Part shown: positions 20,237 to 60,166 of the stretch, in pieces
Numbering within the stretch: position 1 is the stretch's first letter
Layout of the letters: every line of letters starts with the position of its first letter
From: an uncultured archaeon
GTDB taxonomy: Archaea > Thermoproteota > Bathyarchaeia > Bathyarchaeales > Bathycorpusculaceae
Direction of reading: 5' to 3'
NCBI GenBank assembly: GCA_938023865.1
Contig: CALJDG010000048.1
Location: forward strand, 26,515-90,514
DNA length: 64,000 nucleotides
Translations under genes and position numbers: made by a program
Notes under the pieces: generated by a model
What the model was told of the DNA's origin: nothing
The model's database searches: none
What the model saw: only the letters and a program-made list of their open reading frames with translations

Positions 20237-21477
20237 TCAGCAGTGTATATCGTGCTCTTCGCTTTTGACCTTCGTAATGAATTGCTTCAGCGTCATCATA
20301 CCTATGTTCCCAAAACCATGTCTTCTGACAGAAACCTTTTTGGCTTTTAATTCACGTTTACCGAGGATTATCATATAAGGGATTTTCTGAACTTCAGCTT
20401 CCCTAATCTTATAATTAATTGTTGACTGACTTTCGTCAATTTCTGACCTAACTCCATTTGACTCAAGTTTTCATGGATTTTCTTAGCGTATGACAAGTAT
20501 CTGCCTCCCACGGGTAATATTTGCACCTGCACTGGTGAAAGCCAAAGCGGAAGATTGCCCTTAAAATGTTCGAGAAGTAGGGCGAAGAATCTTTCTATTG
20601 TCCCGAGGAGGGCTCTATGAATCATGATTGTCCAGTGTTCCTTTCCATCTGGACCCACATATGTTACATTGAAGCGTTTTGGAAGGTTAAAGTCAAACTG
20701 GATTGTTGAGCATTGCCACTTTCTTCCAGAGGCATCCTCTATGTAAAGGTCGATTTTCGGACCGTAGAATACGGCTTCTCCGGGCATCTCCTTGCACTTT
20801 AGTCCTTTCTTTTTTAGGGCTTTTGCCAATGCTTTTTGAGCTTGGCTCCATTCTTCATCAGAACCCATGTATCTTTCTGGCTGGCTTTCATCTCTGGTTG
20901 ATAGAAACACCTCATATTTGTGGAAGCTGAAACATTTGAGGATGCGCTCTGTAAAGTCCAAGAGTTTTAGGATTTCGTCTTCCATTTGTTCTGGTGTGCA
21001 GAAGATATGGGCGTCGTCTTGTGTTAACCCTCTAACCCGTAATAGTCCGTGCAGTGCGCCGGAGTGTTCATATCTGTAGACGGTTCCCCATTCTGCGTAT
21101 CTTATTGGCAGTTCTTTGTAGCTTCTGGGTTTTGCCTTGTATATTTGTATGTGGAAGGGGCAGTTCATAGGTTTAACAACGTAAAGTTCACCGTCCTTCT
21201 CGAAAGTGTACATGTTTTCCCTATAATAATCCAAGTGTCCGGAAATTTTCCAAGGTTCTCCTCTTGCAATGTGTGGAGTACAGACGAGCTCGTAGCCGCC
21301 TTTAATGTGTTCTTCCTCCCAGAAGTTTCTGATTATCCTTCGAACAGTTGTGCCTCTCGGGTGCCAAAGCACTAGACCTACACCAACATCTTCGTTTATA
21401 GAGAACATATCCAAGCGTTGGCCGAGAACTCTATGGTCTATGTCCAAATGCTCTTTTGTTTGCGCTTTGTTTTCCAA
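20237..21477 (-). pseudogene. thrS: Threonyl-tRNA synthetase, catalytic plus anticodon-binding type without N-terminal editing domain; apparent -1 nt frameshift at 20468-20471
   Basis: ORF track frame (20371-21477) encodes class II ThrRS core (VVKPMNCPFHIQIYK, YRYEHSGALHGLLRVRGLTQDDAHIF, TIMIHRALLGTIERFFALLLEHFKG). After one extra A in the AAAA run the C-terminus reads HEKLESNGVRSEIDESQSTINYKIREAEVQKIPYMIILGKRELKAKKVSVRRHGFGNIGMMTLKQFITKVKSEEHDIHC*. Possibly functional if the deletion is a sequencing error. Confidence 0.85.
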
Positions 21478-21590
21478 AATTTCAGCGGGGCTTTTAGGGG
21501 CTGGATTTTCGCTTACAAAACGTTTAGACTTGTGTTTCTAAATACCCCATTTCAACCACAAAGTCAACAAGTGCCGCGGTTCTATTTATC
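21478..21590 (-). promoter_or_regulatory. thrS leader: TATA-like box, 8-codon uORF (21524-21550, MGYLETQV*), potential hairpin
   Basis: Minus-strand GGATAAATAG, then GTGGTTGAAATGGGGTATTTAGAAACACAAGTCTAAAC; GGGGTATTTAG pairs with downstream CTAAAAGCCCC with one mismatch. Confidence 0.5.
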
Positions 21591-58488: not shown

Positions 58489-58567
58489 CTTTCAAGCATG
58501 CTTACATTCTTAATTTGTTGGTAACGGTTAAAACACTTACCATTAGCTTTTGCTAGTCGAAAGAAAC

Positions 58568-58723
58568 TTTAAATAATCTGATTGCGTTTTTAGGATGCGA
58601 GTGGTTTAAAATGGGCGATTACGTTCCACCTTGCTAAACTTCTCCGAAAAGCGCCCAGCATAAAAACTAGCTTCGCACTAAAATTATATTCAACAAACAA
58701 CCAGAAGCAGAGGAGAGGATAAA
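58568..58723 (+). promoter_or_regulatory. proS leader: TATA-like box, 8-codon uORF (58611-58637, MGDYVPPC*), potential hairpin
   Basis: TTTAAATAAT near 58568-58577; GTGGTTTAAAATGGGCGATTACGTTCCACCTTGCTAAAC; TGGGCG (58612-58617) pairs with CGCCCA (58652-58657). Confidence 0.5.
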
Positions 58724-60166
58724 ATGTCAGATTTAGGAATAACTGTCAAAAAGTCTGAGGACTTTTCCGAATGGTACACTCAAGTTGTGCTGAAATCTGG
58801 CCTCGCAGATTATGCGCCGATAAAAGGATGTATGATCTTCAGAGAGCTTTCATATGCCATATGGGAGAGAATCCAAGAAATCTTCAATGAGAAAATAAAG
58901 CGGACTGGACATAGAAACGTGTACTTTCCCCTCTTCATACCTGAGAGCTTTCTAAAGAAGGAGGCGGAACACTTCGCTGGCTTTGTACCAGAGGTTGCAT
59001 GGATAACTATTGGCGGGGATACACCATTAGAAGAGAAACTCGCCATAAGACCAACATCAGAAACAATAATTTACGCGACATACGCTAAATGGATCAGAAG
59101 TTGGAGAGACCTACCGATCAAGCTGAATCAATGGTGCAGTGTCGTAAGGTGGGAGACAAAAGCCACTAAACTTTTCCTCAGAACGAGGGAATTCTTGTGG
59201 CAGGAGGGACACACAGCCCACGCGACAAAGGAAGAGGCAGATAAAGAAGTTATGGAAATTCTTAACGAATACAAAGACTTGATGGAAAATTACTTGGCTA
59301 TTCCAGTGCTGGTCGGCATAAAAACTGAAAGCGAAAAGTTTGCTGGAGCCCTTTACACAACAACGTTGGAAGCCATAATGCCAGATGGTAAAGCACTGCA
59401 AATGGGTACATCCCACAATCTTGGACAAAACTTCTCAAAAGTTTTTGACATCAAATTCATAGGCGAGGACGAAAGGGAACATTATGTTTGGCAAACTTCG
59501 TGGGGCATATCAACACGGATTATAGGTGCATTAGTCATGGTTCACGGCGACGACAAAGGACTCATCATACCGCCAAGAATAGCCCCAATACAAGCCGTGA
59601 TAATTCCCATACCTTATAAAGAAGCTGACACAAGCGCAATATTCACAAAAGCAAGAGAAATCCATGAAAAACTACAAGAGGCAGGAATTTCCACGATCTT
59701 TGATGACAGGAAAGAGTATACTCCAGGATGGAAGTTTAACGACTGGGAGCTAAAAGGCGTGCCGCTGCGAATTGAGATAGGACCAAGAGACGTGAAACAA
59801 AGACAAGTAACAATTGCGAGGAGGGACACGCCTGAAAAACAAGTTGTAAAAGAAGAGAAACTCATTGAAACAGTGCAACAACTTTTAGAGGCAATCCAGA
59901 TCAACCTATTCAGCAAAGCCAAAAAGTTCTTGGAAGAGATGATAACTCCAGTAAAAGCTTACGACGATTTCAAACAAGTTTTAAAGGAAAAAGGCGGATT
60001 CATAAAGGCTTCATGGTGCGGTAGCCAAGAATGTGAGGGAAAAATAAAGGAGGAGACAAGCGCAACCATCAGGCTTATCCCGTTTGAAAAGGAAGAACCA
60101 TCCTCCAACTGCATTTACTGCGGAGAGAGAGCGAAAGAGGTGGTTTACTTCGCCAAACCATACTAG
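58724..60166 (+). CDS. proS: Prolyl-tRNA synthetase (archaeal/eukaryotic type)
   Basis: 480 aa; FSEWYTQVVLKSGLADYAPIKGCMIFR, LAIRPTSETIIYATYAKWIRSWRDLPIKLNQWCSVVRWE, FLRTREFLWQEGHTAHAT, SAMGTSHNLG-like QMGTSHNLGQNFSKVF. Confidence 0.97.
   Translation: MSDLGITVKKSEDFSEWYTQVVLKSGLADYAPIKGCMIFRELSYAIWERIQEIFNEKIKRTGHRNVYFPLFIPESFLKKEAEHFAGFVPEVAWITIGGDTPLEEKLAIRPTSETIIYATYAKWIRSWRDLPIKLNQWCSVVRWETKATKLFLRTREFLWQEGHTAHATKEEADKEVMEILNEYKDLMENYLAIPVLVGIKTESEKFAGALYTTTLEAIMPDGKALQMGTSHNLGQNFSKVFDIKFIGEDEREHYVWQTSWGISTRIIGALVMVHGDDKGLIIPPRIAPIQAVIIPIPYKEADTSAIFTKAREIHEKLQEAGISTIFDDRKEYTPGWKFNDWELKGVPLRIEIGPRDVKQRQVTIARRDTPEKQVVKEEKLIETVQQLLEAIQINLFSKAKKFLEEMITPVKAYDDFKQVLKEKGGFIKASWCGSQECEGKIKEETSATIRLIPFEKEEPSSNCIYCGERAKEVVYFAKPY

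Follow-up and report, generated by a model that had tools for sequence, protein, structure and literature searches.

A leader upstream of proS in Bathyarchaeia as a likely member of a set of frameshifting sensors of tRNA charging

The 64,000-nucleotide (nt) window analyzed here, from an uncultured archaeon of the Bathyarchaeia, contains a short upstream open reading frame (uORF) ahead of proS, the gene for prolyl-tRNA synthetase. We consider it quite likely, from comparison with related genomes, that this leader is one of several translational sensors that work by frameshifting at a hungry codon. We searched 61 genomes for proS and read the upstream DNA at 30 loci; extra loci came from a pattern search of the family, and 27 distinct proS leaders were compared. 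The comparative evidence is strong. With slightly less confidence, we propose that Bathyarchaeia probably possess a reading-frame circuit against amino-acid shortage, in which at least six synthetase genes (Pro, Thr, Leu, Ile, Phe and Trp) have sensors built on their own codons, with shifts in both the +1 and -1 directions. An earlier note on this DNA had described two synthetase leaders; both are real, and the set is larger.

In the window, the uORF (58611..58637, + strand) reads ATG GGC GAT TAC GTT CCA CCT TGC TAA in the zero frame, encoding MGDYVPPC and then a stop. It is preceded by GTGGTT at 58601..58606 (+), with GTGGT at 58601-58605. This GTGG(TT) is best read as a Shine-Dalgarno (SD) site because it fits the 16S 3' end of a relative, G008 (GGATCACCTCC); GTGRTT is conserved among relatives and can also pair. 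Further upstream, the TATA-like element AAACTTTAAATAAT (58564..58577, +) has a conserved counterpart in the same place in relatives and would serve as the distal promoter. The proposed shift site, GTT-CCA-C (58623..58629, +), would hold GTT in the P site, with the Pro codon CCA at 58626-58628 next to be decoded and CAC as the +1 codon. A leader open reading frame (ORF) in the +1 frame, FHLAKLLRKAPSIKTSFALKLYSTNNQKQRRG followed by a stop, runs from 58624 to 58722 (+) and ends 1 nt 5' of the proS ATG at 58724, which itself lies 86 nt beyond the uORF stop. The proS ORF (58724..60166, +) encodes 480 amino acids (aa) and includes the ProRS C-terminal domain PF09180. Direct reading of the window also places a CGCCCA at 58652-58657, and the coordinates that the earlier note gave for the uORF, TATA-like box, GTGG motif, proS spacing and CGCCCA all hold.

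The uORF is more than a chance occurrence, since the element was found at 23 of the 30 proS loci of relatives. Across the 27 distinct leaders the zero frame reads M-G-D-x-V-P-x-x-stop. Codon 6 is CCA (Pro) in every leader and codon 5 is GTT in 25, and the stop falls at codon 9 in 26, with TAA, TGA and TAG all in use. The suggestion that orthologous leaders might lack a conserved uORF, or a Pro codon within it, is therefore excluded. Codons 4, 7 and 8 are variable, which makes the second Pro codon in the window incidental. A Pro-Pro pair had been taken as the key feature, and we rejected stalling at such a pair because codon 7 is not conserved (H in 12 leaders, R in 5, Q in 5 and P in only 3 of the 27); the Pro at codon 6 alone is kept. 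Four proS genes without the uORF (L011, L022, L025 and L027) have another leader in common, TGCGTTATGGTTATATG..GCCAG..AAAACAGAA, approximately 45 nt before the start. At L009, where proS lacks the cassette, a similar short ORF without a Pro codon, ATGGGTTATTGTGCCAAGTAACCCCCAT (MGYCAK and a stop), is located approximately 180 nt upstream of the gene.

The DNA between the uORF and proS appears to be maintained as protein in a second frame. All 27 leaders keep the +1 frame (TTC CAC ...) open from the Pro codon onward; this frame has a protein-like pattern (FHxAKF..LAHIRI..TLELYST) and stops between -13 and +26 nt relative to the proS ATG. From the uORF stop to proS, it contains 0 stops in 635 codons, compared with 55 and 48 in the other two frames. 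Compared with column-shuffled alignments, this frame favors conservative substitutions (z = 3.0), with values of -0.5 and 0.5 for the other frames. In three leaders (L003, L017 and L018), a TAG stands immediately 5' of the TTC in the +1 frame.

The strongest single argument for a change of frame comes from thrS2, a paralogue encoding a short threonyl-tRNA synthetase (ThrRS), whose product appears to be read in the +1 frame with no start codon shared among orthologues. The gene is present in some relatives only, and a ThrRS of about 620-630 aa occurs alongside it in most genomes. The earlier note had pointed to a similar thrS element in the window, and it is real: the zero-frame uORF (21524..21550, - strand, read 21550 -> 21524) encodes MGYLETQV and a stop, with its Thr codon ACA at 21535-21533. 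In 10 orthologues the uORF reads MG(Y/D/H)xETxx-stop; GAA ACA is invariant, and Thr is codon 6 of the 8-codon uORF (ACA in 10/10). ThrRS2 itself is the +1 frame from the GAA ACA site (20371..21537, - strand, read from 21537 down). No ATG, GTG or TTG is common to the orthologues, and the first one lies 39-45 codons into the frame (L065, L066 and L070). In the alignment, the stretch from the uORF stop to the enzyme core is kept as protein, with 0 stops in 210 codons (z = 3.5). Seven of the 10 thrS2 leaders have a TAG directly 5' of the shift codon in the +1 frame. Together with the three proS leaders that have a TAG in this position, this means that the frame can be entered only between codon 5 and the zero-frame stop.

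The C-terminus of thrS2 in the window is broken in the assembly. An apparent 1-nt deletion at about 20440-20460 (-), which may be an assembly error or a mutation, leaves the conserved C-terminus (YKIREAEVQKIPYMI...) to carry on in another frame. Two other thrS2 copies, L067 (G036) and L071 (G028), have broken N-terminal frames and intact uORFs.

Four further synthetase genes have comparable leaders. The leuS uORF begins MRDxVL.., with CTC as the Leu codon in 19 of 19, and its +1 frame runs into LeuS; the distance from the cognate codon to the stop varies from 0 to 7 codons. In ileS, the uORF is MKGDRQIxS-stop with the Ile codon in 18 of 20, and the +1 frame likewise runs into the enzyme; the zero-frame stop is maintained through GAT, AAT and AGT codons of the other frame. 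The second frames of leuS and ileS have no stops in 272 and 159 codons, respectively (z = 2.0 and 2.4). The pheS leader consists of an SD and ATG CCY CGC CAA TTT xxx stop (MPRQF), with the Phe codon in 25 of 25; its -1 frame (..KPAKNMHTFIKT..) stops at or just within the PheS start in most loci. For trpS we found a short ORF at 14 loci, ending (T/C)TG GA(A/C) TGG xxx stop (L-D/E-W), with a -1 frame open up to near the TrpS start. Second-frame stops number 2 in 735 codons for pheS and 0 in 392 for trpS, against 14-64 in each other frame of proS, pheS, thrS2 and trpS, and conservative substitutions are confined to the second frame (z = 5.1 and 2.8). TATA-like elements, for example ATTATATTC, CTTTTATTAAAAC and CCTTTAATA, are conserved about 35-60 nt 5' of the proS, pheS, leuS and trpS starts. 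Their position inside the leader ORFs suggests a second, proximal promoter for basal synthesis.

In all six families, the invariant or near-invariant codon specifies the enzyme's own amino acid, which suggests that the efficiency of the shift depends on the gene product. The shift regions are GTT-CCA (Pro), GAA-ACA (Thr), GTT-CTC (Leu), CAA-ATT (Ile), C-CAA-TTT (Phe) and G-GAA-TGG (Trp). None of the six contains the X-XXY-YYZ heptamer of classical -1 programmed frameshifting. In the +1 cases, the P-site codon could re-pair on its last two bases. The base 5' of the P-site codon varies in proS, thrS2 and leuS, and is invariant in pheS (C in 25/25, C CAA) and trpS (G; G GAA or GAC). We therefore favor a -1 direction for Phe and Trp, since a -1 slip needs that base, although a +2 shift would produce the same frame and may occur instead. 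Because CCA, ACA, ATT and TTT are all frequent codons in G008, slow decoding at the site is expected chiefly when the tRNA is uncharged. Among Leu codons, CTC is less used and has its own tRNA (GAG).

The proS and thrS2 leaders most likely serve to sense charged tRNA through the ribosome, because a conserved SD-led leader ORF with the cognate codon precedes both genes. From the parts that can be read in the DNA (the uORF, its invariant cognate codon, the zero-frame stop, the constrained second frame and the point where it ends), we infer slippage at the cognate codon, its dependence on charging, and a coupling that raises synthetase output. A ribosome would initiate on the short ORF, in which one codon near the stop needs a tRNA charged by the downstream enzyme. 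When the aminoacyl-tRNA is plentiful, this codon would be decoded, the zero-frame stop would be reached within a few codons, and the ribosome would leave. When it is scarce, the ribosome would pause while the cognate codon occupies the A site, and the tRNA in the P site would slip, by +1 for Pro and Leu (GUU C -> UUC), Thr (GAA A -> AAA) and Ile (CAA A -> AAA), and by -1 for Phe (C CAA -> CCA) and Trp (G GAA -> GGA). In thrS2, leuS and ileS, the shifted ribosome would already be in the synthetase frame. In proS, pheS and trpS, it would read the rest of the leader and stop at the synthetase start, leading to coupled initiation. Either way, more synthetase would be made and the loop would be closed.

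The leader patterns are specific within a genome. When 1.56 Mb of G008 was scanned for the skeleton shared by proS and leuS, with any shift codon and any downstream gene allowed, two matches appeared, proS with CCA and leuS with CTC; the ileS skeleton, scanned over the same 1.56 Mb, matched ileS only. By comparison, whole-genome scans of G008 for an SD-led uORF with an open second frame returned 151 and 186 candidates, so openness in one genome means little and conservation alone counts. Across the class, 46 of 260 genomes contain the exact pheS-leader pattern, and a reversed-pattern control gave 0. The 11 named records that carry the pheS leader all belong to Candidatus Bathyarchaeia/Bathyarchaeota; in the 10 whose contig extends to PheS, the uORF is 126-137 nt 5' of the gene. 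No pheS case was confirmed outside the window's order: matches turned up in G214, of the same class, and in G442, of the same phylum, but PheS could not be detected beside them. We did not see the element at the canonical thrS (about 620-630 aa) or at serS in about 20 relatives, or at valS in a few genomes. A thiamine pyrophosphate (TPP) riboswitch (Rfam RF00059) adjoins valS on the opposite strand, where it serves a divergent gene (L347:2176-2288 and L317:1292-1404). No Rfam family, including the T-box, matches the window or 15 leader loci.

Several observations weigh against regulated frameshifting. Seven of the 30 proS loci and many genomes of the class (in the case of pheS) are without the element. 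No known stimulator or slippery heptamer is present at the shift sites, and re-pairing is imperfect at one position in every proposed slip. leuS leaves both non-zero frames open beyond its uORF stop. The Ile codon is gone from two ileS uORFs, L302 and L304. Where the trpS uORF starts is uncertain (ATG in G008, and GTG, TTG or CTG elsewhere), and at L245 the second frame of trpS has its own ATG. Finally, the stop counts and z values given above are inflated by sequence relatedness, and the alignments were made in the frame tested, with the other frames treated alike.

The rival that survives best, though we consider it unlikely, is a constitutive programmed frameshift at the zero-frame stop or within codons 5-8, which would fix a ratio or sense release-factor activity and make the cognate codon irrelevant. 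All families keep the zero-frame stop, as prfB does, and several thrS2 leaders end in CCC before TAA, a plausible +1 site. However, codons adjacent to the stop change freely in proS, leuS and pheS, whereas the cognate codon and the codon 5' of it are invariant or almost so. The variable spacing between cognate codon and stop in leuS also fits poorly with a shift at the stop, and the presence of the cognate codon in six different genes would have to be a coincidence.

We think it a shade less probable again that the synthetases are made from their own starts on shorter transcripts, using proximal promoters and non-AUG starts, with the uORF being only repressive or vestigial. proS, pheS, leuS and trpS have start codons of their own, the AT-rich TATA-like elements near those starts may yield transcripts lacking the leader, and a GTG lies in the ileS frame within the uORF. 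But thrS2 has no conserved start of the usual kinds, and shorter transcripts do not require the stretch between uORF and gene to be protein-constrained in one frame only. Basal proximal transcripts could also coexist with a frameshift sensor.

The least probable of the three, and a very doubtful one, is the mechanism of the earlier note, leader-peptide attenuation through RNA structure, in which a ribosome stalled at the Pro codons would alter leader folding and proS expression with the frame unchanged. Its core, a leader that senses charged tRNA at a cognate codon, fits the conserved SD-led uORF with its Pro codon, which is probably translated judging by the SD and the conserved frame, and in many leaders a UUCUC 3' of the uORF stop has the potential to pair with the SD of proS. 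The folding part is not supported: in a structure count that covered the TGGGCG/CGCCCA hairpin, TGGGC/GCCCA pairing was possible in 15 of the 27 leaders and the partner was missing in 12, and attenuation leaves the open, constrained second frame and the start-less ThrRS unexplained. We therefore dropped the hairpin with the UUCUC anti-SD as the main mechanism, and the conserved second frame entered at the cognate codon leads us to favor regulated frameshifting instead.

The closest known system in logic is the autoregulatory +1 frameshifting of RF2. In prfB, one decoding step in a short zero-frame ORF slows when the product is scarce, the ribosome slips by +1, and the product is read in the new frame (PMC5009743). 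The synthetase leaders have the same layout, with a zero-frame ORF that closes early and a product in another frame; thrS2 has it directly, and leuS and ileS are continuous in the +1 frame. The slow step differs, since in RF2 it is a UGA stop awaiting RF2, whereas in the synthetase leaders the stop and its 5' neighbors vary, the cognate sense codon is invariant, and the wait would be for a charged tRNA. In addition, the synthetase set spans several genes, seemingly uses both directions, and in three of the six (proS, pheS and trpS) the shifted frame ends at the enzyme start.

Frameshifting at hungry codons is familiar from starved cells and test constructs. Both directions are known from the work of Gallant and co-workers (PMC5009743, PMC8211752). 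Bacterial leader-peptide attenuation and the T-box resemble the synthetase leaders in that the leader of a gene for a given amino acid reads tRNA charging through a codon for that amino acid (the specifier), but the output of the synthetase leaders would be a reading frame, not a terminator or anti-SD structure. Archaeal recoding includes the -1 frameshift of fucA1 in Saccharolobus (PMC8211752) and predicted -1 sites in magnesium chelatase of methanogens (PMC5009743), each at A-rich slippery heptamers within the gene. Frameshifting thus occurs in archaea too, but neither case is described as a charging sensor. In our literature search, which covered few subscription journals and preprints, we met no account of synthetases controlled by frameshifting, whether in Bathyarchaeota or in other organisms, and no natural regulatory set of such genes.

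T-boxes and leader attenuators belong to bacteria, and GCN2 belongs to eukaryotes. To our knowledge, it is largely an open question how archaea detect that charged tRNA is running short, and the synthetase leader set offers a specific answer. One practical consequence is that annotations of synthetase genes in these genomes probably misplace the 5' end, as with thrS2, which lacks an ordinary start. The leader elements are also short and could serve as tRNA-charging reporters. If our reading is true, these leaders would represent a previously undescribed class of charging sensor, as well as the first known ribosome-mediated control of synthetases in archaea, and hungry-codon frameshifting would act in nature to regulate the same enzymes that relieve the shortage.
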